DNA of 48,511 nt, taken from the IMG/VR virus record IMGVR_UViG_3300022752_000111, positions 1-48,511 of that record, one strand, 5' to 3'. The translations under genes were made by a program, and so were the position numbers. Below are positions 8,475 through 41,653 of this stretch, piece by piece. Every line of letters starts with the position of its first letter. The first letter of the stretch is position 1. The notes beneath the pieces were generated by a model. The model was not told the DNA's origin. It was given only the letters and a program-made list of their open reading frames with translations, and ran no database searches. The stretch comes from a virus.

Positions 8475-9719
8475 ATGAAACTACCACCGTTTATTAAAAG
8501 TTATGACAATTTCACACCCGGTAAAGACACTGTGCTATACTCTGGTCCCTATTGGGACCAAAAAGAGATTACAGCAGCTATTCGTTCGTTAACTGAAGGT
8601 GCTTGGATTACAAGCGGACAAGAAGTAGACGCTTTTCAGTCTGAATTCGCAAAGATGTTTAATACTTCGTTTGCTCATATGGTCAATTCTGGCAGCTCGG
8701 CTAACCTTGTAATGGTTACAGCTCTTAAGAAGTACTTACAATGGGCAGATGGTGATGAAGTTATTGTTAGCCCGGTGGGTTTTCCCACTACTATTGCACC
8801 TCTCGTACAAAACAACCTTAAGCCAGTATTTGTCGACATTGAAATGCAGACTTTAAATTTTGATGTGGGATTAATAGAATCGGTAATAAATGAGCGCACT
8901 CGTGCAATTTTTGTGAGTCCGGTACTAGGTAATCCGCCCGATATGGATGAATTGCAACATTTGGCCAATAAACATGGTTTATATTTAATTGGCGACAATT
9001 GTGACACACTCGGAACTTTGTGGAATTCACGTCCCATCACTGACTATTATTATAGTTGGAGTTGTAGTTTTTATCCTGCACATCATATAAGCACCGGTGA
9101 AGGTGGCATGGTCGCTAGCAACGATGAGGAACTAATTAAAATTGTAAGAAGCATGAGTTGGTGGGGAAGAGACTGTTATTGTGTTGGGGCAAATAACTTA
9201 CTTGCTTGCGGTACTTGCGGTAAAAGATTTGACCAATGGTTGGATAATTATGATGGTATAATTGATCACAAATATGTTTTTACCAACATAGGGTACAATC
9301 TTAAACCTCTAGATTTACAAGGTGCTATTGGTCGCGAGCAATTATTGAAAATGCCTGAGATTGACCATAAGCGCAGGGAAAACAAAAAGATTATTACTGA
9401 ACATTTAAAAGCTATTTCAGATGTAAGAGTGGCCGAGCAACTGTTCCAAGCAGATCCAAGTTGGTTTGGTGTTCCCATCATCTGCAACAGTCAAGAATTA
9501 AAAGAAATGTTAGTAGCGCATTTTGAAGATAACAAAGTTCAAACTCGTAGTTACTTTGCAGGTAATATTTTATTACATACAGGATACAGGCACTTAGGGA
9601 ATTACAAGGATTATCCAAATGCAAACTTGGCTCTTAGTCATGTATTTTTTATAGGCTGTACACCTTTATACACACCAGCAGTGCTAGACTATATTAAAGA
9701 GGTTATCAATAAATGGTAA
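8475..9719 (+). CDS. rfbH: RfbH-like CDP-4-dehydro-6-deoxyglucose 3-dehydrase (PMP and [2Fe-2S]), 414 aa
   Basis: A DegT/DnrJ/EryC1-fold protein in which the lysine that normally holds PLP is His203 (YPAHHISTGEGG). This is the hallmark of the E1/RfbH 3-dehydrases, which use PMP and a [2Fe-2S] cluster to remove the C3 hydroxyl of CDP-4-keto-6-deoxyglucose. The cluster cysteines are present: Cys176 (GDNCD), Cys234 exactly 57 residues later, Cys236, and a final Cys before GKRF (Cys248, with an extra Cys245). The family spacing between the last two is 7; here a 4-residue insertion makes it 11. It overlaps by 7 nt the SDR gene. The pathway product would be a 3,6-dideoxyhexose (abequose, paratose, tyvelose type). 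Confidence 0.85.
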   Translation: MKLPPFIKSYDNFTPGKDTVLYSGPYWDQKEITAAIRSLTEGAWITSGQEVDAFQSEFAKMFNTSFAHMVNSGSSANLVMVTALKKYLQWADGDEVIVSPVGFPTTIAPLVQNNLKPVFVDIEMQTLNFDVGLIESVINERTRAIFVSPVLGNPPDMDELQHLANKHGLYLIGDNCDTLGTLWNSRPITDYYYSWSCSFYPAHHISTGEGGMVASNDEELIKIVRSMSWWGRDCYCVGANNLLACGTCGKRFDQWLDNYDGIIDHKYVFTNIGYNLKPLDLQGAIGREQLLKMPEIDHKRRENKKIITEHLKAISDVRVAEQLFQADPSWFGVPIICNSQELKEMLVAHFEDNKVQTRSYFAGNILLHTGYRHLGNYKDYPNANLALSHVFFIGCTPLYTPAVLDYIKEVINKW

Positions 9720-10531
9720 ACTTATTTGGCCATGGATTTGTTGGTGGCGAATTTGCTAAACGATATCCTTGTGTTATTAATTCGCGTGACGATTACGTAC
9801 CTCAGAGCAATAATATTCTGTATTTTATAAGCACTATACACAATTATCATGTTTTCACAGATCCTCATTTAGATATTAACACTAATCTAAATTTACTAAT
9901 TACAGTGTTAGAAAACGCTAAAAATCGTTTTGGATGTGATTTTACTTTTAATTTTATTAGTTCTTGGTTTGTTTATGGTAACACCGAAATGCCCGCAAGA
10001 GAAAGCAATTATTGTGATCCAAGAGGTTTTTACTCGATAACAAAGAAGGCTGCTGAAGATTTGCTTATTTCCTACTGTACCACATTTAACATTAAGTATC
10101 GTATCTTGCGGTTAGCTAATGTGTTGGGTTCTAGTGACACCAAAGTAAGTGCTCAAAAAAATGCTTTGCAATATCTTATCAACCGGTTAAAAAGACACGA
10201 GCCTATTGAACTTTATGATGATGGTGATTTTTATAGAGACTACATTGATGTTGATGATGCTGTAACTGCTATAAACTTAGTGTTATCAAATGGTCAATTG
10301 AATTATACTTATAATATAAGTAATGGACAGCCCATAAAGTTTAAAAATTTAATTGATTATGTAGTTAGTAAGACTAATAGTAAGAGCCAAATAAGTGCTA
10401 TAGAGCAGCGAGATTTTCATAAAATAGTACAAGTCAAGACCATGTTCCTAGATAATGAAAGACTACTTTTGCTAGGCTATAGTCCGAACTACACTATAAA
10501 CCAAACTTTGGACAAACTCATTAATGAATAA
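9713..10531 (+). CDS. NAD(P)-dependent SDR epimerase/reductase, possible CDP-3,6-dideoxyhexose reductase, 272 aa
   Basis: An extended SDR with the nucleotide loop G6-x-G8-x-x-G11 ([11 protein letters not shown]), a Ser-containing strand FISSWFVYG and the catalytic Y107-x-x-x-K111 (YSITK). Its position directly after rfbH parallels O-antigen loci where RfbJ or RfbS reduces the RfbH product to CDP-abequose or CDP-paratose. It could equally be a general sugar epimerase/dehydratase. It overlaps both neighbours (7 and 8 nt). No separate E3-type reductase, needed by RfbH, is seen in the window, so the host would have to supply electrons. Confidence 0.75.
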
Positions 10532-11672
10532 ATTTAGATTCCATATATTAGGACTGCCGCACACAGTTACATCAAAAGAATATAATGCCTGCGCCTATAC
10601 TCAAAAGGTATGGAAATTCGGCAAGATGATGAAAGAGCGAGGGCATGAAATAATTCATTATGGACATGAGGATTCCGATCTTATCTGTGACGAACATGTT
10701 ACAGTTAGTACCAACCGTGATTTAGAAATTGCCTACGGTGATTATGACTGGCGCCGTAATTTTTATAAGTTTGATGTAAGTGATTATGCTTATACAACCT
10801 TTTATGCTAATGCTATCCGTGAAGTTGGACTACGCAAACAACCACTTGATTTTATTTTACCTTTCTGGGGCTCGGGTGTTCGTCCTATTTGTGATGCACA
10901 CCCAGAATTAATCACAGTAGAACCCGGCATCGGATACGCAGGTGGGCATTGGGCTCGTTGGAAAATATTTGAAAGCTATGCCATTTACCATGCTTTCTGC
11001 GGTATGCAAAATGTAGGCACATGCAGACAAGACTGGTACGAAACAGTTATCCCTAATTACTTTGATCCTGAAGATTTCACCTATGCTCCTGAGACTAAAG
11101 AAGATTATTTTCTTTATTTGGGCAGAGTTTATGAAGGCAAAGGTGTGCATATAGCTATTCAAGTTGCCGAAGCTACTGGAATTAGATTAAAGATAGCTGG
11201 ACAAGGAAGTTTAGAATCCATGGGCTATCCAAATACACCCAGTAACATTGAGTTTATCGGGTATGCTGATATTGAAACTCGTAGGCAGTTAATGAGTCGT
11301 GCTCGTGGTGCTTTTGTACCTAGTATGTATATCGAGCCTTTTGGCGGAGTACAAATTGAAATGCTAATGTCTGGCACACCTACTATAAGCACAGACTGGG
11401 GTAGTTTTGTAGAAAACAATGTACACGGTGTTACCGGATATCGTTGTCGTACATTTGATCAATTCTGTTGGGCAGCGGAAAATATAGATAAAATTGATCC
11501 AGCTGCATGCCGCTCTTGGGCAGTGGATAACTTTAGCTTAGATGTAGTAGCTCCACAATACGAGGAATTCTTCCAAAATGTCTTAGATGTTTACACAGGT
11601 AAAGGTTGGTATCAAAGACATCAGCGTAACAATCTTGATTTCAAAACTAAATTTTACCCAAAATCAAATTGA
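10524..11672 (+). CDS. GT4-family glycosyltransferase (GT-B), 382 aa
   Basis: The C-terminal donor domain is clear: [11 protein letters not shown], then IKLKIAGQG-like strand-loop (LKIAGQGS) and the E-x7-E motif E271-E279 (EPFGGVQIE) followed by MSGTPTIST. These are the classic retaining GT4 donor-binding elements. The N-terminal half is an acceptor domain of GT-B type. Length is typical for GT4. It is the last enzyme of the operon, and the next promoter starts at its stop codon. Confidence 0.85.
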
Positions 11673-16997: not shown

Positions 16998-18098
16998 ATG
17001 AAAAAACTTCCTTACATAGAAGATTATATTGTTTTGTTAGGAGATGATCCTCTGTCATGGCCACCAAAACAACAAATTATCAAACTAGCTAGGTACGATG
17101 AGCCTATTGTAAATAGCATGGCCCAGCAAGTGACTAGTAAATTAGGTTTTACAGATAAACAAGCCGCACTTGCACAGAAAATTGTAACTAAATATCGTAA
17201 GCAATGGTCTGCTGCCGGATACGACGTAACCGATCATATCGAAACACCTAGGTACAAATTACCAATCAGAGTCATTGATCGAAGGCAGCGAATTGATTTA
17301 GTTGATTATAATATAGAAATTAGGTTCCCTTACGATCAAGATATTATCAGTAAATTACGAGCGTCGGCTAATGAGTCACCTGGTAGGTTATCTTGGGACC
17401 CAGACAAACATTGTTGGATAACGCCGGCACTGGAGCAAAGAGTAGTCTGGGCTAAAGAATTTGGTGTAGAATATAACTTTGAATTTAGTACCGAGTTTGA
17501 CCAAGCACTATCAACGCTGTTATCACAATCTGACTTCTCTATTTGTTTGCAGCGTGATGGTTCTAATTTTGCTATTACCAATGCAGAAATTTCGTTATTA
17601 GATTACATTAGTGAGAATATCGGATTTGATGACTTAACCAAATTAGTAGACTACAGTAGTATATTGGGATACGAGATAGATCCGGTTATAAAACATGAAC
17701 TTGATGTCAAACAATTGATTAAATCTGTTCTAATGTCAAGAACAGTCAATCTGACATACACTTCATATGTCAACGACTTTGATCAAATAGTTGAATATGC
17801 CAAATTAACTGATAGATTTCCTATCTTCGTCTACGAATCGGGGACTAAGACTTTGATGCGTGAAATTGAAAAATGTTTTCCTCCAGACCAAGTGCTCAGT
17901 CAAGGACATCATCTTATCTCCAAACATGAAGTCAACAAATACAAAGTTGTTTATTTTAATCATTGGAAAACCATACGGCAAAAAATGCCATTATTAGTTA
18001 CTATGCACACTTTGTTGATAGGTCATCGTAGGCAGCAGGTCGCAAACTTGGCTGATAAAATTGTATACTATACACAGGTAGTCGATAATAATGAATGA
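16998..18098 (+). CDS. Unknown protein with HARP-like segment, UvsW partner gene, 366 aa
   Basis: I use the ATG at 16998, six nt after the -10. The in-frame codon 63 nt upstream lies within the terminator/promoter. Residues ~104-140 (FPYDQDIISKL, GRLSWDPDKHCWI) resemble a HARP-type domain found beside DNA-annealing helicases. It overlaps the UvsW helicase gene by 8 nt, so both probably work on DNA. No ATPase motif is present. The domain call is weak. Confidence 0.6.
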   Translation: MKKLPYIEDYIVLLGDDPLSWPPKQQIIKLARYDEPIVNSMAQQVTSKLGFTDKQAALAQKIVTKYRKQWSAAGYDVTDHIETPRYKLPIRVIDRRQRIDLVDYNIEIRFPYDQDIISKLRASANESPGRLSWDPDKHCWITPALEQRVVWAKEFGVEYNFEFSTEFDQALSTLLSQSDFSICLQRDGSNFAITNAEISLLDYISENIGFDDLTKLVDYSSILGYEIDPVIKHELDVKQLIKSVLMSRTVNLTYTSYVNDFDQIVEYAKLTDRFPIFVYESGTKTLMREIEKCFPPDQVLSQGHHLISKHEVNKYKVVYFNHWKTIRQKMPLLVTMHTLLIGHRRQQVANLADKIVYYTQVVDNNE

Positions 18099-19548
18099 AT
18101 GTGTGTTATCAATTCGAGATGAAGTTAATGTTAAGTTGTCAGGACTTGACGTTGATACTCGACGTCACCTTACCAACAAATTCAAATATGAAATTCCCGG
18201 AGCCAGGTATTTGCCGGCCGTAAGGTTAGGGAGATGGGATGGTAAGGTCAGCTATTTTAGTTTGGCTGGCTCCACGTACATTAACTTGCTGCCCGAGATA
18301 ATTCCAATTTTAGAAGAACGTGGCTACGACATACAAGTTGAAGATGTGCGTGAATATACAACTAGCTTTGCCTTTGCACAGATCAATGAAGAAAGTTTTA
18401 CGCATGTAAATTGGCCCGAAGGACATCCTGAAGTTGGGAAACCAATAACATTGCGTGATTATCAGATTGAAATCATAAATCGTTTTCTCAGCAACCCACA
18501 GTGTATACAAGAAGTTGCCACTGGGGCCGGTAAGACAATTATGACTGCGGCGCTAAGTTCAAGCGTTGAAGAATATGGACGTAGCATTGTAATCGTACCT
18601 AATAAAAGTTTGGTTACACAAACCGAACGTGACTACCGTAACTTAGAATTAGACGTTGGGGTATACTTCGGCGATCGCAAAGAGCTCGGGCACAAGCATA
18701 CAATATGCACATGGCAAAGTCTTAATGTTTTGCTCAAAAACACTGCTAGTGGTGACACTGACATTACAATTGGTGAATTCATCGAAGGCATAGTCTGCCT
18801 TGTAGTTGACGAGGTACACATGGCCAAAGCCGACGCACTTAAAACACTGTTAACAGGTGTGTTTGCTCATGTGCCTATACGCTGGGGTTTGACTGGCACC
18901 GTGCCCAAAGAAGAATATAATCGACTAGCATTATTGTGTACTCTAGGTCCGGTCATAGGACAACTAAGTGCAAGCGAACTACAAGATCAAGGAGTCTTAG
19001 CTGAGTGTCACGTTAACATTGTGCAATTAGCTGACCATAAAGAGTTTAATAACTATCAAAGTGAACTTAAATACTTGTTAGAAAATTCAGAACGTTTAGA
19101 CTACATCAGCAGACTTATTGAAAAAATTAGAGAATCCGGTAACACCTTGGTCTTGATTGATCGTGTAGCAGCTGGCCAAGCATTAGTCAGTCGCATTAGA
19201 GATGCAGTGTTTGTATCAGGTGCAACCAAAGGCACAGAAAGGCAAGAAGAATATGACGAAGTGGCAACGGCAGCAGACAAAGTCATTGTCGCCACCTATG
19301 GTGTGGCAGCAGTTGGTATCAATATTCCTAGGATTTTTAATCTTGTTCTTATTGAGCCTGGTAAAAGTTTTGTACGAGTCATACAGAGTATTGGCCGAGG
19401 CATTCGCAAGGCTTCAGACAAAGACTTCGTCCAAATTTGGGACATAACCAGTAGTTGTAAGTTTGCCAAAAGGCATTTGACTCAACGTAAGAACTTTTAT
19501 CGAGAGGCAAAATACCCCTTTGACTTAGAGCGGGTAAATTATATATAA
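18091..19548 (+). CDS. uvsW: UvsW-type SF2 DNA helicase, 485 aa
   Basis: All SF2 motifs are visible: Walker A VATGAGKT at ~142-149, DEVH at ~240-243, WGLTGTVP, a late TYGVAAVGIN and motif VI SIGRGIRKA. An N-terminal region without helicase motifs precedes these, as in T4 UvsW, which unwinds branched DNA, promotes fork regression and shuts off origin replication. The length is close to the T4 protein. It overlaps the upstream gene. The -10 of the next promoter overlaps its stop. Confidence 0.9.
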   Translation: MNECVLSIRDEVNVKLSGLDVDTRRHLTNKFKYEIPGARYLPAVRLGRWDGKVSYFSLAGSTYINLLPEIIPILEERGYDIQVEDVREYTTSFAFAQINEESFTHVNWPEGHPEVGKPITLRDYQIEIINRFLSNPQCIQEVATGAGKTIMTAALSSSVEEYGRSIVIVPNKSLVTQTERDYRNLELDVGVYFGDRKELGHKHTICTWQSLNVLLKNTASGDTDITIGEFIEGIVCLVVDEVHMAKADALKTLLTGVFAHVPIRWGLTGTVPKEEYNRLALLCTLGPVIGQLSASELQDQGVLAECHVNIVQLADHKEFNNYQSELKYLLENSERLDYISRLIEKIRESGNTLVLIDRVAAGQALVSRIRDAVFVSGATKGTERQEEYDEVATAADKVIVATYGVAAVGINIPRIFNLVLIEPGKSFVRVIQSIGRGIRKASDKDFVQIWDITSSCKFAKRHLTQRKNFYREAKYPFDLERVNYI

Positions 19549-20539: not shown

Positions 20540-21219
20540 CATATCAATGTCAGTACTGTAATCGTAGTTTTGTTAAAGAAAGTACATTAACCCATCATGC
20601 TTGCGAACGTAAAAGACGGTTTCAACAAGAACGTGAGATAGGTGTTCAATGGGGCTTGAGAGCATATATCATATTCTATACGACTACACAAAGCTCACAT
20701 CGTACAAAAAGCTATGCCGATTTTGTAGATAGTCCTTACTATACTGCATTTGTACGTTTTGGCCGTCATTGTCATAGTATTCATTGTGTTAATTTTGAAC
20801 ATTACACTCGTTGGTTGCTCAAGAATAACAAAAAGCTAGATTACTGGGTATCTGAATCCTTTTATAATGAATGGCTACAAGAATATCTACGCAATGAAAA
20901 CGTTCAAAATGCACTGGAACGTAGTATGCAGACTATTCTTGACTACATGCACGAACATCCAGAATACCGTAATGGTTACCGAGATTACTTTAGACTAGCT
21001 AATGAAAACCGTATATGCTATCATATAAGTACTGGGCGTGTGAGTGTTTGGATGGTTTACCATGCCGAGTCCGGGCAAGATTTCTTATCGAGACTTAATG
21101 ATGATCAAGTTGCTAGTATTATTAACTTTATTGATCCAACATTTTGGAATTCTAAGTTTCGTGACTGCCCTGATGATGTTGAATTTGTGCGTGGGGTTCT
21201 TAAAACAGCTGGATTATGA
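20536..21219 (+). CDS. C2H2-like zinc-finger phage protein, 227 aa
   Basis: The N-terminus is a classic zinc finger, C5-x2-C8 with H20/H21 and C23 (YQCQYCNRSF), followed by a basic KRRFQQER stretch, then a long helical/aromatic domain with no known motif. It overlaps both neighbours by four nt. The finger suggests nucleic-acid binding. Position among replication genes suggests a role in replication or transcription, unproven. Confidence 0.7.
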   Translation: MTYQCQYCNRSFVKESTLTHHACERKRRFQQEREIGVQWGLRAYIIFYTTTQSSHRTKSYADFVDSPYYTAFVRFGRHCHSIHCVNFEHYTRWLLKNNKKLDYWVSESFYNEWLQEYLRNENVQNALERSMQTILDYMHEHPEYRNGYRDYFRLANENRICYHISTGRVSVWMVYHAESGQDFLSRLNDDQVASIINFIDPTFWNSKFRDCPDDVEFVRGVLKTAGL

Positions 21220-21794
21220 AATTTCAAAGCGATATTGACATAGATTTTGCTGACCGCAGCCAAGTTCTTGCTCATATACGTCATCGTGCTGCCAGCATAG
21301 ATCATACGACGCCACACAATACAGGTATCTATGTCACCGAGATACCTTATGATCCTGTGACTAATCGTGCCACAATAGACTACCGAACAGCAGAAGAACG
21401 TGGCTACATTAAACTAGATTTACTCAATGTAAACATTTATAACCAAGTCAAGTCTGAACATGATCTTAAGCAGCTTATGTCTGAGCTTCCACCCTGGCAA
21501 CGATTGTTAGATAAATCATTCTGTGAGCAGTTAATTCACATTGGTAATCATTATAACACATTGTTACGTATGCCTGAGACAGTCAACACTATCTTAAGGT
21601 TGGCTATGTTTTTGGCTATTATACGCCCGGGTAAAAGACATTTAATCGGGCGGACTTGGGCCGAAGTCGCAGCGACTATATGGGAACGAACCGATGATCA
21701 ATATAGTTTCAAACGCAGTCATGCAGTGGCCTACGCACACCTAGTAGCGGTGCATATGAATCTATTAAATAGGTCTACGAACCAAGGTAATTGA
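21216..21794 (+). CDS. Short DnaE (Pol III alpha)-like protein, 192 aa
   Basis: The N-terminus SDIDIDF (D6, D8, D10) matches the Pol III alpha palm motif PDIDIDF that carries two catalytic Asp. GYIKLDLL (D68) matches the strand with the third catalytic Asp (VKFDFLG in cellular DnaE), and FKRSHAVAYA at about 164-173 matches DnaE's FNKSHAAAYA. The PHP domain, most of the palm/fingers between these motifs and the C-terminal domains are absent. It is probably a derived or accessory version; activity is uncertain. Overlaps the upstream gene (ATGA) and is overlapped at its 3' end by the antisense gene. Confidence 0.75.
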   Translation: MKFQSDIDIDFADRSQVLAHIRHRAASIDHTTPHNTGIYVTEIPYDPVTNRATIDYRTAEERGYIKLDLLNVNIYNQVKSEHDLKQLMSELPPWQRLLDKSFCEQLIHIGNHYNTLLRMPETVNTILRLAMFLAIIRPGKRHLIGRTWAEVAATIWERTDDQYSFKRSHAVAYAHLVAVHMNLLNRSTNQGN

Positions 21795-22136
21795 GCGCCG
21801 TTTGCTGCGTTTAGCAGCGATTTCTTTGAGACTAATGTTAGGGCCAACTAGTATAGTCACGTCCTTACTATTCATTGTCTTAATACTGAACTTAAATTCT
21901 GCCCAATCTGATTTTAGAAAAACGTTGATCGGTATCATTCTATTACTTTCCCACCACCATTGCTCGCCTAAGCTCAAGTACTTTAATTTTTGTTCTTGAG
22001 TACGTAAACTACCAAAATCGTATATTGTAGTGATTTGTTCATCGGAATTTTGAATTATTCCTATGTATTCGTCGCCGCCGTATTTAAGGTAGGTAATAAA
22101 AGGGTACTGGATTAAGAGCTGTTTAATTTCTTCCAC
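21765..22136 (-). CDS. Lone minus-strand conserved phage protein, 123 aa
   Basis: This ORF fills the only large gap in + strand genes. The product shows composition unlike a shadow: YGGDEYIGIIQN, an EQWWWESNR motif, IPINVFL and a basic end with RSKRRS. I use the GTG at 22136; an in-frame TTG at 22172 would give 135 aa. A TATAAATA sits just upstream on the minus strand. Its 3' end overlaps the + strand gene by 30 nt. The family is a conserved phage protein of unknown function. Confidence 0.75.
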   Translation of the reverse strand: MEEIKQLLIQYPFITYLKYGGDEYIGIIQNSDEQITTIYDFGSLRTQEQKLKYLSLGEQWWWESNRMIPINVFLKSDWAEFKFSIKTMNSKDVTILVGPNISLKEIAAKRSKRRSITLVRRPI

Positions 22137-22141
22137 TTTTC

Positions 22142-22149
22142 GGTAAATA
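22142..22149 (+). promoter_or_regulatory. Candidate late promoter (GGTAAATA) for the + strand tail genes
   Basis: GGTAAATA lies 8 nt before the ATG at 22158, which has no visible RBS. It resembles the other (G/A/T)TAAATA elements ahead of structural genes in this window. Confidence 0.35.
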
Positions 22150-22157
22150 GTAAAATA

Positions 22158-22661
22158 ATGATTACAATCCAAACTTATTTATATCCAGTTATAATAGTAG
22201 CCGAATTTTGGGACCCTACGATCTTTACTACAAGGAATACGCAAGTGTATGCAACCCCAGTGACCATATATCAAGGAATTGATAACCCAATTCAGATAAG
22301 AGTACGAAACCAAGACCAAAAGTCTGTGGATATGACCGGAAGAGTTATTCAAGTAGATATTCAAAATCCCGATAATCAGCTTACAGAATACAGCTTTGGT
22401 ATTAGTTTTAATAACAGGATAAAAGGATACGGTAATTTTACTATTCCAAAAAACGTTGTTGATAATTTAAAGCAACGACAGTACAAATTAACTTTTAGAG
22501 CCATCAATGAGGCAACTAATCAAGAACAGCCAATGTTTGTTGATGATAATTTTGGCGTACCACTGGATCTAATTGTTAAACCAGCATATTATTCTGACAT
22601 GCCCGTACAAGAAAATGAAATGTCAGACTTTCTTACTATTGACGGCGGAACCACACCATGA
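22158..22661 (+). CDS. Putative virion structural protein (tail/baseplate type), 167 aa
   Basis: A beta-rich protein starting MITIQTYLY and ending in an Asp/Gly-rich tail. The segment IYQGIDNPIQIRVRNQD recalls baseplate upper/adhesin N-terminal domains of phage structural proteins. Stop overlaps the ATG of the tail fibre by 4 nt, so it is probably expressed with it. Function is inferred from context. Confidence 0.6.
   Translation: MITIQTYLYPVIIVAEFWDPTIFTTRNTQVYATPVTIYQGIDNPIQIRVRNQDQKSVDMTGRVIQVDIQNPDNQLTEYSFGISFNNRIKGYGNFTIPKNVVDNLKQRQYKLTFRAINEATNQEQPMFVDDNFGVPLDLIVKPAYYSDMPVQENEMSDFLTIDGGTTP
22176..22183 (-). promoter_or_regulatory. Perfect T4-type late promoter on the minus strand (TATAAATA)
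   Basis: Read on the minus strand the sequence is TATAAATA, the exact T4 late consensus. It lies 40 nt upstream of the GTG at 22136, in the right orientation and position to drive the lone antisense gene. Confidence 0.55.
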
Positions 22662-25054: not shown

Positions 25055-26029
25055 ATGTTGACTGTTGTTCAAGACACTGTATTACAATACCTGCCTGGTC
25101 GTCGTCGTACCAGTCCTGGTGGGTGGACGAGTTTCAACGCACCATGTTGTCAACATCGTGGACACAAATCTGATACTCGTGGTCGTGGAGGCATAATTAC
25201 TAATCCAGATGGCACAGTTATCTATCATTGCTTTAACTGCGGATTCAAAACTGGATACAGACCCGGCAGTCATTTAGGATACAAATTTCGAAAACTGTTA
25301 TCTTGGCTAGGTGCCGATGAAAACACCATACGACGTTTGGTCATTGAAGCAGTTAGAGTTAAGGAGTTAGTTGGTGTTGCCGACACTGAGCCCGAAGTTG
25401 AAGTTCAATACACCCCAAGAGTGTTGCCCAATGATGTTAGATTAATTGACGAAGATCCACAGGCCATGGCCTATTGTCAAGCAAGGAAAATTGACTTAGA
25501 TCAATATCCTTTGCTAGTGAGCAGGCGAACCGAACACAATCTCAATCGTCGTATTATTATACCGTTTACTTGGCAGAACGAGTTAATCGGTTACACTGCT
25601 CGCACTTGGGACCCACTAATTAAACCAAAGTATTATAGTCAATATGATGCTAATTATGTTTATAACATTGATCGCCAACAACCAGATTCAAAGTTTGTGA
25701 TTGTAGTAGAAGGACCCGTTGATGCCATGAGTATAGACGGTGTGGCAGTGCTTGGTAACGAATGTTCCGAAGTGCAAGCTGACATTATAGATAGCCTTGT
25801 AAGAGAGGTTATCGTAGTCCCTGACGGTGACCGTTCTGGCACGAAGTTGATTGACAATGCCATAGAATATGGCTGGACTGTTAGTTTTCCAGTATGGCAT
25901 GAAACTTCGAAAGATGTTAATGAAGCAGTTATAAAGTATGGCAAATTATTTGTGCTTAAATCTATACTAGATGCACGAGAAACCGGAAGATTAAAAATAG
26001 AACTCAAACGAAAGCGACTATATAGTTAA
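25055..26029 (+). CDS. DNA primase (gp61-type), 324 aa
   Basis: The N-terminus has the primase zinc-binding set: C31/C32 with a His at 34 or 37, then C59-x2-C62 (YHCFNCGF). The Toprim domain follows with E219-G-P-V-D223 and VPDGD (D257, D259), the two-metal site of primases. T4 gp61 makes pentaribonucleotide primers and couples to the gp41 helicase, whose gene is 1 nt downstream. Shorter than bacterial DnaG, as expected for phage. Confidence 0.9.
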   Translation: MLTVVQDTVLQYLPGRRRTSPGGWTSFNAPCCQHRGHKSDTRGRGGIITNPDGTVIYHCFNCGFKTGYRPGSHLGYKFRKLLSWLGADENTIRRLVIEAVRVKELVGVADTEPEVEVQYTPRVLPNDVRLIDEDPQAMAYCQARKIDLDQYPLLVSRRTEHNLNRRIIIPFTWQNELIGYTARTWDPLIKPKYYSQYDANYVYNIDRQQPDSKFVIVVEGPVDAMSIDGVAVLGNECSEVQADIIDSLVREVIVVPDGDRSGTKLIDNAIEYGWTVSFPVWHETSKDVNEAVIKYGKLFVLKSILDARETGRLKIELKRKRLYS

Positions 26030-26030
26030 C

Positions 26031-27440
26031 ATGAAAGATTACTCGGTAGATTTACAAAAACTATTTTTGGAGATCATGCTCACTGACGCACAGAGTTTCG
26101 TGCGAGTGCAGAACATCTATAACAGTGATAACTTTGATCGCAGTTTACGTGAAGCCGCAAAGTTTATCTACGAACACGCAGACCGTCACAAAATTTTGCC
26201 CACACAAGAACAAGTTGTTGCTGTTAGTGGCGTGGAGGTACGTGCAGTACCGAATTTAGATGAAGGGCATTTGTCGTGGTTTCTAGAGGAGTTTGAAAGT
26301 TTTACTAAGAAACAAGAATTAGAACGTGCTATCCTTAAAGCCGCAGACTTGATCGAAAAGGGTGAATTTAATCCAGTTGAGAAATTAATCAAAGACGCAG
26401 TGCAGATCAGTTTACAGCGTGACTTAGGCACAGACTACTTTGAGAATCCCAGAGAACGATTGCTTGAACTTAAATCTAATAACGGACAACTTAGCACAGG
26501 TTGGCCTAATTTGGATAGGATCTTGTACGGCGGGTTTAATCGTGGTGAACTACAGATCTTCGCTGGTGGGTCAGGCTCGGGCAAGAGCTTGGTCATGCAG
26601 AATTTATCTGTGAATTGGATGTTAGCTGGCCTAAATGGTCTTTATATCACACTAGAACTCAGTGAAGGCTTGTGTAGTATGCGTATCGATAGTATGGTTA
26701 CAGATACTAGCAGCAAAGAAATATTCAAAGACATTGACAATGTTGACATGAAACTACGTATTGTGGGTAAAAAAGCCGGACATTTCCAAGTCAAGTACAT
26801 GCCGGCACAGAGCAATGTCAACGACATACGTAGTTATGTCAAAGAGTTACAGATCCAGACTGGGCGCCGGATTGATTTCTTGTGCATTGATTACTTAGAC
26901 TTGATCATGCCAGTATCGGCCAAAGTATCCCCCAATGACTTGTTTGTTAAAGACAAGTATGTCAGTGAAGAACTACGTAATTTGGCCAAAGAACTCAACG
27001 TACTATTTGTTACAGCATCGCAGTTGAATAGATCTGCTGTAGAAGAAGTAGAGTTTGATCATAGTCATATTGCCGGTGGTATTAGTAAGATTAACACAGC
27101 GGATAATGTGTTTGGTATCTTTACTTCAAGAGCCATGCGTGAACGTGGCAAGTATCAGATACAGGCAATGAAAACACGTTCGAGCTCGGGTGTAGGACAA
27201 AAGGTTGAGTTAGAGTTTGATATTGAAACTCTAAGGATTAGAGACTTGGCCGAAAATAATGACGATTACGGTAAATTTAAAAAACAATCCACTACTATCT
27301 ATGATCAAATTAAGGCCAAGAGCGAGGTTAATACTAATTCTTCGGCTCCGGCAGATTCGCCTGGTAAGGTCACAGCCAGCGTAGATTCATCTAAACTAAA
27401 AGAAATGTTAGCCGGGCTTAAATCAACTAAGTCAGTATAA
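26031..27440 (+). CDS. Replicative DNA helicase (gp41/DnaB-type), 469 aa
   Basis: Walker A GGSGSGKS is at about residues 179-186. Walker B is LCIDYLDLI, followed by VTASQLNRSA and a helicase arginine-rich region (RSSSGVGQKVELEF). These mark the DnaB-like RecA fold. N-terminal ~150 residues form the helical domain that binds primase. With the primase upstream it would form the phage primosome. The C-terminal ~60 residues are low complexity and basic/acidic, probably flexible. Confidence 0.92.
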   Translation: MKDYSVDLQKLFLEIMLTDAQSFVRVQNIYNSDNFDRSLREAAKFIYEHADRHKILPTQEQVVAVSGVEVRAVPNLDEGHLSWFLEEFESFTKKQELERAILKAADLIEKGEFNPVEKLIKDAVQISLQRDLGTDYFENPRERLLELKSNNGQLSTGWPNLDRILYGGFNRGELQIFAGGSGSGKSLVMQNLSVNWMLAGLNGLYITLELSEGLCSMRIDSMVTDTSSKEIFKDIDNVDMKLRIVGKKAGHFQVKYMPAQSNVNDIRSYVKELQIQTGRRIDFLCIDYLDLIMPVSAKVSPNDLFVKDKYVSEELRNLAKELNVLFVTASQLNRSAVEEVEFDHSHIAGGISKINTADNVFGIFTSRAMRERGKYQIQAMKTRSSSGVGQKVELEFDIETLRIRDLAENNDDYGKFKKQSTTIYDQIKAKSEVNTNSSAPADSPGKVTASVDSSKLKEMLAGLKSTKSV

Positions 27441-31102: not shown

Positions 31103-31798
31103 ATGCTAAACCCTAAATATAACTACAAAGAAATACAACGCGAAAGCCTGAATGGTAGTCGCTATTATGTTACTCCTACTGGCGAACGAGTTCCTAGTGT
31201 AACAACCATCCTTGATCGTACCAAGCCTGAAGAATCTCGACAGGCACTACAAGAATGGCGCCGAAGAGTTGGCGAACAGCGAGCGCAACAGATTACCACC
31301 GAAGCTGCCGGACGTGGCACTCGTATGCATAAATGGCTCGAAAACTATATACAATCGGGTGACGCCGGTACTCCGGGAACACATCCAGAAAGTCAACGCA
31401 GTCATCGTATGGCTATGAAGATAATTGAGCAAGGTTTTGGTAACGTTACAGAAGTCTGGGGTAATGAAGTGCCCTTATACTTTCCTGAACTCTATGCCGG
31501 TACCACAGACTGCGTAGGTGTTCATGCCGGAGAGGAAGCTATTCTAGACTTTAAACAAAGTAATAAGCCCAAACGCAGAGAATGGATTGACGATTACTTT
31601 CTACAATTAACTGCCTATGCCCTAGCACACAATGAAGTACATGGGACAAATATACGCAAGGGGGTGGTCATGATGTCGGTAAAACCCGAAGACGGGGCCG
31701 AGCCGGTCTACCAAGAATTTGTTTTAGAACCCAGTGACTTTGACATGTGGACTGACCGTTGGTGTGATCGCGTAAGCGAGTATTATCGTATCCGGTAA
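31103..31798 (+). CDS. PD-(D/E)XK exonuclease, RecB-like, 231 aa
   Basis: A complete RecB/Cas4-type core is visible: His76 (GTRMHKWLE), Glu122, Asp136 (AGTTDCVG), D149-F-K151 (LDFKQS), Gln168 and Tyr172 (QLTAYALA). These residues bind metals and position DNA in RecB-family nucleases. It may process DNA ends in recombination or replication. Its early-type promoter inside a structural cluster fits a DNA metabolism role. Confidence 0.85.
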   Translation: MLNPKYNYKEIQRESLNGSRYYVTPTGERVPSVTTILDRTKPEESRQALQEWRRRVGEQRAQQITTEAAGRGTRMHKWLENYIQSGDAGTPGTHPESQRSHRMAMKIIEQGFGNVTEVWGNEVPLYFPELYAGTTDCVGVHAGEEAILDFKQSNKPKRREWIDDYFLQLTAYALAHNEVHGTNIRKGVVMMSVKPEDGAEPVYQEFVLEPSDFDMWTDRWCDRVSEYYRIR

Positions 31799-38679: not shown

Positions 38680-38969
38680 TGCCAGGCGCAGCTAGACAAG
38701 CACAAGATATGGCCGGACTGGGAGGGGTGATTACCCTTCCAGTGGCTTGTTCAGTGTTAGTCAATGGCAAGCCAGCAGCCCATCAGGGGTCAATCTGTGT
38801 ACCCCATGCACCATTTGGTAAAAAGCCAAATGTTCATAACATTCCACATCCAATTATTAAAGGCTCGTGTTCGGTTACTGTAGAAGGTAAACCTATGGCA
38901 CGTGCTGGTGATATGGCCACATGTGGTTGTACAATTAAAATAGGTAGTTGCGACGTAATGGTGGGCTGA
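38679..38969 (+). CDS. PAAR-type baseplate spike tip protein, 96 aa
   Basis: Pro/Ala/Ala/Arg-type beta repeats and conserved His/Cys (VPHAPFGKKP, HNIPHP, MATCGC) match the PAAR family, which caps the central spike of contractile tails and holds a metal. In T4 the equivalent is gp5.4. Its stop lies in the following terminator. Confidence 0.85.
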   Translation: MPGAARQAQDMAGLGGVITLPVACSVLVNGKPAAHQGSICVPHAPFGKKPNVHNIPHPIIKGSCSVTVEGKPMARAGDMATCGCTIKIGSCDVMVG

Positions 38970-38985
38970 TAACCCACCTTTTTTT
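38960..38985 (+). terminator. Rho-independent terminator overlapping the PAAR stop codon
   Basis: GGTGGG-CTGATAA-CCCACC followed by seven T. The TGA stop is in the loop. Confidence 0.85.
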
Positions 38986-38987
38986 AC

Positions 38988-38995
38988 GATAAATA
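38988..38995 (+). promoter_or_regulatory. Candidate late promoter (GATAAATA), leaderless start
   Basis: GATAAATA ends six nt (TCTATT) before the ATG at 39002, placing the transcript start next to the initiation codon. No RBS is seen. It directly follows a terminator. Confidence 0.55.
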
Positions 38996-39001
38996 TCTAT
39001 T

Positions 39002-41653
39002 ATGTCTTGTAGTGTCCTAAGCGTAGTTAGCAGTATTGCCAGCGCCGGCCTTTTAGGTGGGGGTGGTCTTGTTCCTGGATTAGATGGTTTTGATCTAGGA
39101 GGATTCGATGTAGGGTCATTAGGCGAATTAGGTATTAACACAGACCTACTTGATAATCTATCCGAATTTGATTTAGGATCCATGGATGATGTGCTAGGTG
39201 GCCTAGGAGATACTTTTGGTGACCTATCTATCGAAGCATTTGATATGTGTGGTGATCTAGTAGGTGATGTTTTAGGAGATTTACCTGATGGATTATCTGG
39301 TTTAATAGACACAGACATATTCAGTGACTTTGCATTAGAGGGTCTTGATTTCGCTGAATCTGGTAGTTTGTTTGATAGTATAAGTGGCCAAGTATCAGGT
39401 CTGCTAGAAAATGGCGTGCCAGGATTCACTGAAATAATTAATGGTGCTAAAGCATTTGCTGAACAAAGTGCCAGCGCATTAGCTAGCATACAGAATGCTG
39501 CTAATTTTCAAATTGGCGGTCAAAATTTTAATGCTATAAGCATATTCGACCAAGTCACCGGTGGTGCTTTGTCACGGACTTTTGATCCAATAAGAAACAT
39601 AACAAATTTAGCTTCAGGTGCGGTTGGCGCAGCCAGTGACCTTTTAGGAACAGTGCAGTCGAGTATTAATGGACTTCAGTCACAATTTACCTCCTTTACT
39701 GATGACATTGCACAATGGGGTACTATGTATAATGTAACTCAATTAGATAAAGCATTTGAAGTACCTACATTCGTACAAAATCTAGTTGACCAAGGGGTTC
39801 CGGGCCTTAGTAAAATACTGGAACAGTCAGGAATTAGTGCCTATAATGTTCTGAGCCAAAGCCCTGAAACATTGTTAAATGCAATATCTTCAGTGCCTAA
39901 AAATATTGTAGCAAGTATAGCAGATAAGGTAGGGTTTACTCGGCCTTTAGAAAACTTAGCCGATGCACTTATTCCGGCAACAGTATTAAGTGCCGGTGCA
40001 ATAGCATTAGTAAAAGATTTTAAAGGTGTATCTAATCGACTAACCAGTGTAGGATCAACCAATGTCCAATCATTTACTCAACTTGGTAATGAGCTAGGTA
40101 AAATTAAATTTCCAGAGAGTAGCGTATTATTAGGCATAGAACGTAACACCACTGGATTGAAAGACGTACTGTCAGCTAACATAGCAGGTAGACAAACTAT
40201 AACTGGCACAGGCGTAGGTACATTCAATAATCCCACTATGGACGATATGCTGGGAGCCTTCACTGGATCTTACTATACACCTAGACTTATCGGTATGTTA
40301 TCGGCCCAGAAGCGATTGATAGACACACCAGAAGGGCAAGCACTCAAATCAGCTATTCAAACAGCAGTAAATAATGCTCGAGCTAATCTTAACACTGATG
40401 CCGCTGACGCTGCGGCAATAAGATCGGCATTAAATGCTTTATTAGCAAGATCAGACAGTCAAACCAGTGAAGATTTTGCATTATTAGAGCGTTTTCAAAA
40501 TGATTTAGTTACTAAATTAGCAACAGAAAAACGTAATCTTAAAGCAGCGAGAATTGAATCAAATGTTGTGGGCTCACTGTCATCTGTCATGGGTTTTGTT
40601 AGTAGTCTTGAAAATGCATACGATGATGATTTTAATATTGGATATGCAGAGTGGGTCGATCAAGCAGCAGGCAATGATCAATTCGGTGATGCTATTAGAT
40701 TAGCAATGGTGGAAGGAAGCAACAAAAGAACGTTACAAAATATTGGTGCAACTTTTAGAACTACTAGTGTATTTGATTATGCCGATCAAGTTGCTGCTAA
40801 GAGAGCAGCAGAGCTAGCTAAATGCTGCCCACCTTATAGTGAACTCGGTGTCTATCCCGAGGCAGGATCTTTGTTGTCAACTTACTGTGAAAACTTTAAT
40901 TTGTATGGTATTTATGCTGATGGCAATGGTATGAGCTATTATACGGTTATAGAAAACAATAGCCTTGTCTGCGGTTTTACAACTACAACCACCAGCACTA
41001 CAACTACTAGTACGAGTACCACTAGCACTACATCTACTACCACTAGCACTTCGTCTACAACTAGCAGCACTACGTCAACCTCAACTAGCACAACATCTAC
41101 AACCACGTTGCCACCTTCCACTTCAACTACTACATTGTCTGGTTCTACAACATCTACATCGACCACAACAGAAGGACCAACAACCACTACTACATTAGCA
41201 CCAGGACAAACAACTACAACATCGACATCTACAACATCTACATCGACATCTACAACCTCTACATCTACAACCTCTACATCTACAACATCTACAACCTCGA
41301 CGTCTACAACCTCTACAACTACTACCACAGGGGCACCAACAACTACAACTACTACAACCACGACAGCGGCACCTCCGGCGCCCACCATTGATACATTCAA
41401 CTATGAAATCACAAATGTAAATGCGAATACGTTTCATGTAAAATTAACTTGGACCACAACAGGTGCAGATCAAGTATCAATTGAAATATATGAAAATGGT
41501 AGTTTATACGACAGTTATACTGGGCTATCGGCAGATAACCCAACAACAGGGTTGACTATACCGAGTTTAAGTGCGGCAAACACGTATGAAGCTAAATTAA
41601 TAGCAATTAGAAATAGTCCGTACGCAGAAACTACCTCAAGTGTTTACTTCTAA
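39002..41653 (+). CDS. Large virion protein with mucin-like Thr/Ser region and Ig/FN3-like end, 883 aa
   Basis: The N-terminus is Gly/Asp/Leu-rich (GLDGFDLGGFDVGSLG) followed by several long helical and beta regions. Residues ~660-788 are nearly pure Thr/Ser with Pro/Gly/Glu interruptions (LPPS, EGP, LAPGQ, GAP). The last ~90 residues form a single beta-sandwich (FHVKLTWTTTGADQVSIEI), like an Ig/FN3 domain. The layout (body, linker, adhesin) suggests a tail or baseplate adhesin. Its neighbour is the PAAR tip and it has a late-type promoter. Exact family not recognised. Confidence 0.7.
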   Translation: MSCSVLSVVSSIASAGLLGGGGLVPGLDGFDLGGFDVGSLGELGINTDLLDNLSEFDLGSMDDVLGGLGDTFGDLSIEAFDMCGDLVGDVLGDLPDGLSGLIDTDIFSDFALEGLDFAESGSLFDSISGQVSGLLENGVPGFTEIINGAKAFAEQSASALASIQNAANFQIGGQNFNAISIFDQVTGGALSRTFDPIRNITNLASGAVGAASDLLGTVQSSINGLQSQFTSFTDDIAQWGTMYNVTQLDKAFEVPTFVQNLVDQGVPGLSKILEQSGISAYNVLSQSPETLLNAISSVPKNIVASIADKVGFTRPLENLADALIPATVLSAGAIALVKDFKGVSNRLTSVGSTNVQSFTQLGNELGKIKFPESSVLLGIERNTTGLKDVLSANIAGRQTITGTGVGTFNNPTMDDMLGAFTGSYYTPRLIGMLSAQKRLIDTPEGQALKSAIQTAVNNARANLNTDAADAAAIRSALNALLARSDSQTSEDFALLERFQNDLVTKLATEKRNLKAARIESNVVGSLSSVMGFVSSLENAYDDDFNIGYAEWVDQAAGNDQFGDAIRLAMVEGSNKRTLQNIGATFRTTSVFDYADQVAAKRAAELAKCCPPYSELGVYPEAGSLLSTYCENFNLYGIYADGNGMSYYTVIENNSLVCGFTTTTTSTTTTSTSTTSTTSTTTSTSSTTSSTTSTSTSTTSTTTLPPSTSTTTLSGSTTSTSTTTEGPTTTTTLAPGQTTTTSTSTTSTSTSTTSTSTTSTSTTSTTSTSTTSTTTTTGAPTTTTTTTTTAAPPAPTIDTFNYEITNVNANTFHVKLTWTTTGADQVSIEIYENGSLYDSYTGLSADNPTTGLTIPSLSAANTYEAKLIAIRNSPYAETTSSVYF
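40979..41365 (+). repeat. Thr/Ser-coding repeat region in the large virion protein
   Basis: 387 nt (129 residues) of Thr/Ser with short interruptions. Between 41221 and 41330 the DNA has near-perfect repeats built on ACATCTACA-type units. It could expand or contract by slippage. Confidence 0.85.

Follow-up and report, generated by a model that had tools for sequence, protein, structure and literature searches.

A 192-aa open reading frame with an ATG start at positions 21216-21794 (plus strand) of an IMG/VR virus record (IMGVR_UViG_3300022752_000111, analysed over its full 48,511 nucleotides and hereafter called the window) carries three stretches that resemble the polymerase III alpha subunit (DnaE): SDIDIDF (residues 5-11), KLDLL (residues 66-70) and FKRSHAVAYA (residues 165-174). 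A preliminary description of this DNA noted these motifs and proposed that the protein might be a repurposed polymerase fragment, a regulator of host DnaE, or a very small nucleotidyl transferase. We therefore asked what so small a DnaE-like protein is, and whether it is complete in itself.

The frame and its motifs were found as described, and the encoded protein matched PHROG_11778 ('DNA polymerase') from residue 2 to residue 186, nearly its whole length (E=1.6e-54). A Pfam search with the same protein gave no match, and PHROG_11778 matched none of 14 control cellular genomes. By tblastn, relatives were identified in 63 phage records; those listed are either partial records or jumbo phages with genomes of roughly 280-490 kb, and include RaK2, K64-1, GAP32, CBB, 121Q, PBECO4, Munch, Paride, PA5oct, Atu_ph07, Phosso and SCTP-2, among others. 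Among the IMG/VR stretches scanned there were 221 relatives, and because a 374-kb contig has a copy 59% identical to that of the window, the window is evidently a piece of such a jumbo phage. In GenBank records KU574722, MT939487, MT708547 and others the gene is labelled 'putative membrane protein', which is likely a misannotation that apparently stems from a predicted transmembrane helix.

The candidate active-site residues of this protein, which we refer to as the C-half for reasons given below, are the metal-binding aspartates D6, D8 and D68, together with K66, an RPxK motif (residues 137-140) and an FKxSH..Y motif (residues 165-173). Across 102 non-redundant C-halves, D6, D8, D10, K66, D68, R137, P138, K140, K166 and H169 showed zero variation, so that all three aspartates singled out in the preliminary description are invariant in homologues. 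The median dN/dS over 77 close C-half pairs was ~0.09, and the gene is therefore under strong purifying selection. A chance open reading frame or decaying pseudogene, for which the sole point is that most of DnaE is missing, was rejected on this conservation and dN/dS; with hundreds of relatives and a conserved gene order also speaking against it, we assign it a negligible probability.

C-half residues were mapped onto E. coli alpha by motif order. D10 and K66 presumably correspond to D405 and K553, and we take the R137-K140 region to be the RPG motif and the K166/H169 region to be FNKSH760. By the same order, D6, D8 and D68 correspond to the catalytic triad D401, D403 and D555 (PMC8485763), and H169 aligns with H760, which has been proposed as a steric gate against ribonucleotides and is reported never to vary across the Pol III alpha proteins (PMC8485763). 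At the level of sequence, the strict conservation of H169 favors dNTPs as the substrate of the C-half system.

A structure model of the C-half, built from an alignment of 59 sequences, had a mean pLDDT of 92 and placed D8 and D10 on a first strand (residues 7-11), D6 immediately ahead of that strand, and D68 on another (residues 67-71). Residues 1-190 of the model aligned with residues 968-1296 of PolC (3f2c) with a Z-score of 9.7 over 184 residues; the corresponding values were ~9 for Taq alpha and 7.7 for residues 398-781 of E. coli alpha. All top-ranking solved structures were DnaE or PolC, while the best unrelated family reached a Z-score of 3.5. The comparison with the DnaE palm that had been suggested as a check thus yielded an end-to-end alignment with the aspartates at or on the two strands. 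Foldseek alone again returned the DnaE/PolC families with weak E-values, and a sequence-only profile search against solved structures stayed below threshold (best E=0.13) with four collinear motif blocks; in the profile alignment to solved Pol III sequences, the collinear blocks agree with the fold comparison, on which the assignment rests. Large jumps in the aligned chain numbering show that the C-half has lost the thumb and most of the fingers, and the PHP domain is likewise missing; the 192-aa C-half thus does not have the full-length DnaE/PolC architecture, in which PHP, thumb, fingers and beta-binding regions lie in one chain. The absence of the PHP domain and of intermediate sequence had been recognized previously, but the N-terminal half of the palm, with its GRGS block, is also missing and is encoded elsewhere.

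The missing half was found by searching GAP32, RaK2, Paride and Phosso for the Pfam Pol III alpha domain PF07733, which in all four phages identified a separate short open reading frame distinct from the C-half. This N-half is ~170 aa long, matches PHROG_11127 ('DNA polymerase'), and in its C-terminal part reads W-G-x-G-R-G-S-S ... E-F-L-(K/N), followed by a stop. The GAP32 version is GAP32_323 (172 aa), located four genes ahead of that for the gp44 clamp loader; the Paride version, Paride_0087, lies three genes ahead of gp44. The nucleotide-binding WGxGRGS block is invariant in 32 N-halves, W133, G134, G136, R137, G138 and S139 being among the unvarying residues. The N-half model had a pLDDT of 85, with the lowest confidence around the GRGS loop (block mean 66), as would be expected for a half modelled in isolation. 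Its residues 60-168 aligned with residues 270-393 of E. coli alpha (Z-score 8.5-9.7), the match to the 5lew DNA polymerase gave a Z-score of 10.6, and only DNA polymerase III or PolC chains reached a Z-score of at least 2. True N-half matches had E-values of 1e-16 or better. Other phage matches to the N-half query (Streptomyces phages, gut phages and others) had E-values of 1e-6 or worse, and because of these weaker values, and because those with an annotation carry the name DNA polymerase or Pol III alpha, we take them to be ordinary phage Pol III alpha genes. A small conserved open reading frame that by eye resembles a GroES/gp31-type co-chaperonin lies near the N-half gene (L088:2115-2483 and L089:1959-2483, from GAP32 and RaK2, and L101:2377-2766).

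The two halves are complementary. In E. coli numbering, the N-half match ends at alpha residue 393 and the C-half match begins at residue 398; the matches do not overlap and leave a four-residue gap (394-397), and the two proteins therefore tile the palm. The complete set of palm catalytic motifs is present only when the N-half and C-half are taken together. Of 32 N-halves, 26 terminate two residues after EF, while in 99 of 102 C-halves trimmed to the region of homology five residues precede the first catalytic aspartate, and the nearest start codon lies five residues before that aspartate in 78 of 101; judged from these termini, the split point between the halves is fixed. Neither the 144 C-half loci nor the 44 N-half loci included a fused gene, and none of them holds both halves. 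Cyanobacterial DnaE, a known case in which a split intein joins two halves into one chain after translation, provides a precedent for covalent joining here. Intein fragments were sought at the C-terminus of the N-half and the N-terminus of the C-half and none were found; with N-halves ending two residues past EF and C-halves starting only a few residues ahead of the first aspartate, neither side could accommodate an intein fragment, and we rejected this reading as highly improbable.

The halves also occur together. Of 60 listed phage records with a C-half, 59 also hold an N-half, the exception being a 109-kb record. The distance between the two genes is ~30-44 kb in GAP32, RaK2, 121Q, Paride and a Vibrio phage; in SCTP-2, Atu_ph07 and Phosso it is 116-224 kb. 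Among the closer relatives of the window, both halves are present on the 374-kb contig, a 125-kb contig and several others. An N-half was sought and not found within the 48.5-kb fragment that is the window; as contigs are fragments, the lack of an N-half on the shorter ones means little. These observations bear on whether the C-half could act alone, either as a very small nucleotidyl transferase or as a regulator or decoy of host DnaE or of the beta clamp. The C-half folds confidently by itself and has all three aspartates, as such a protein would require, but it lacks the GRGS block, nearly every carrier phage keeps a separate N-half that ends where the C-half begins, and conservation tracks the catalytic positions; we consider a solitary role quite unlikely. 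Of the three readings offered in the preliminary description, the stand-alone nucleotidyl transferase fails because the GRGS nucleotide-binding block is supplied by a partner gene, and a regulator of host DnaE is disfavored by the retention of catalytic residues in both halves. A repurposed polymerase fragment comes closest, although a split polymerase, of which this protein would be one subunit, is the better description.

We also examined the genomic setting of the C-half gene. In the window, a conserved neighborhood on the plus strand opens with a UvsW-type helicase gene (18091-19548; PHROG_16, E=2.5e-76; ResIII), followed by conserved genes of PHROG_11279 (19556-20065; E=1.8e-49), PHROG_11758 (20066-20539; E=7.3e-17) and PHROG_11058 (20536-21219), the last lying directly upstream of the C-half and overlapping its start by 4 nt. 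A convergent small gene on the minus strand (21765-22172; PHROG_11637) shares 30 nt with the 3' end of the C-half and is separated by two unassigned or fiber-like genes from the plus-strand genes for a DnaG-type primase (25055-26029; PHROG_47, E=3e-42) and a DnaB-like replicative helicase of the gp41 type (26031-27440; PHROG_19, E=3.9e-68). The order is similar in GAP32, RaK2, Paride and Phosso: uvsW (at the equivalent position in GAP32, RaK2 and Paride), small genes, C-half and convergent small gene (at the equivalent place in all four), then one or two genes of virion or unassigned type, followed by primase and DnaB/gp41 helicase. The C-half gene is thus part of a replication region and not of the tail genes beside which it had been placed; the uvsW neighborhood noted at the outset holds, while the zinc-finger label given to the adjacent gene is weak, as the N-terminal C2H2 finger of the PHROG_11058 protein falls below the curated Pfam cut-off (E=0.0014). 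Elsewhere in the window, an 883-aa open reading frame (39002-41653, plus strand) had no PHROG match at 0.001, and its start is overlapped by a 184-aa frame on the opposite strand (38935-39489). A sugar-metabolism cluster (8475-11672, plus strand) comprises an aminotransferase, a nucleotide-sugar epimerase and a glycosyltransferase (PHROG_3408, E=1e-193).

A family-B polymerase is present in all four named phages and in eight of nine long viral contigs related to the window, and can perform bulk replication. In two cases the family-B match extends over two reading frames (OR805295.1, 88906-92683, 825 and 379 aa; the contig of L159 (G014), 197657-200284, 546 and 245 aa), which suggests an intron, an insertion or a second split replicase gene. 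The presence of this replicase, the missing thumb and fingers, and the position of both half-genes among replication genes (the C-half by primase and helicase, the N-half by the clamp loader) are all points for a non-catalytic replisome subunit, in which a palm-like scaffold would bind DNA or nucleotides as a sensor or as a clamp-loader or primase adaptor and would not polymerize. We regard this as unlikely, since the metal ligands, the lysine by D68, the RPxK motif, the steric-gate histidine and the GRGS block are invariant, which would be unexpected had catalysis been lost.

A DnaQ (epsilon-like) exonuclease was considered as a universal third subunit and rejected, its distribution across phages being patchy. 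GAP32 and RaK2 have such a gene close to the C-half and Paride has one at another location, while a PF00929 search found no epsilon-like exonuclease in Phosso, the 374-kb contig or other contigs; the exonuclease encoded in the window (31103-31798) is of the PD-(D/E)XK type. In RaK2-like phages a DnaQ-like exonuclease gene sits just upstream of uvsW (L084:2735-3580 and L085:2733-3554), possibly encoding a proofreading partner in that lineage only.

We conclude that the gene probably encodes the C-terminal subunit of a two-protein mini C-family nucleotidyl transferase, a thumb-less palm that would add dNTPs and probably serve as an accessory polymerase. The N-half, encoded near the gp44 clamp loader gene, would supply helices together with the GRGSS loop for binding the triphosphate of the dNTP, and the C-half would supply the three aspartates that bind two Mg2+ ions, K66, and the helix bearing the sugar-gate residue H169. 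We infer that the halves associate without covalent splicing into a heterodimeric thumb-less palm, which would then add dNTPs to a primer end. As the thumb is absent, the enzyme is expected to be distributive, so that it more likely assists at the fork or in repair than carries out bulk replication; the pair may act as a short-patch, low-processivity polymerase for primer extension, gap filling or repair beside the family-B replicase. How DNA would be gripped without a thumb and most of the fingers is uncertain. It is possible, if somewhat short of probable, that the pair is the smallest C-family polymerase known, a natural heterodimer whose thumb-less palm works at the fork with the family-B replicase, for example by extending primers before hand-over to it. 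One replisome would then use two unrelated polymerase families. An active pair would set the lower limit of what a C-family polymerase requires, and would mean that the core of the bacterial replicase can work as two chains without thumb or PHP.

A split minimal DNA polymerase III alpha was described in group 2.2 jumbo phages in 2021, as two proteins from distant genes, an N-terminal NTP-binding part and a C-terminal metal- and template-binding part, that keep the core catalytic domain only and occur alongside a family-B polymerase (Iyer et al., 2021; PMC7824862). The window contains the stand-alone C-terminal metal-binding half and its relatives contain the distant N-half; we see no difference in kind, and the window is a new member of this known system, to which it adds an environmental clade sharing roughly 35-46% identity with the named phages. 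New here are the family-wide conservation of residues, including the sugar gate, the tiling of the fold, the fixed split point, the co-occurrence counts and the dN/dS. In the library searched, looking for experimental follow-up of the split enzyme turned up no paper other than Iyer et al., 2021. The N-half by itself had been recorded in the CBB paper as a truncated Pol III alpha of 172 aa (PMC5259590), and Pol III alpha and epsilon subunits were reported for Atu_ph07 (PMC6102473); the names of PHROG_11778 and PHROG_11127 give no hint that the halves belong together.

The C-half fold is also found inside compact single-chain phage C-family polymerases, such as those of Staphylococcus phage 6ec and Siphoviridae sp. 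ctHip2, which at about 790-830 aa are more than twice the combined size of the split pair. With bacterial DnaE and PolC (C family, Pol beta-like palm), the phage pair shares the palm fold and the order of motifs, namely GRGS, D-x-D with a distant D, K-x-D, RPG and FNKSH-A-x-Y. Unlike these enzymes, the pair has no PHP, thumb, beta-binding, OB or tau-binding regions, its fingers are nearly gone, and it is made as two polypeptides that total ~365 aa, compared to ~1160 aa for the bacterial enzymes.
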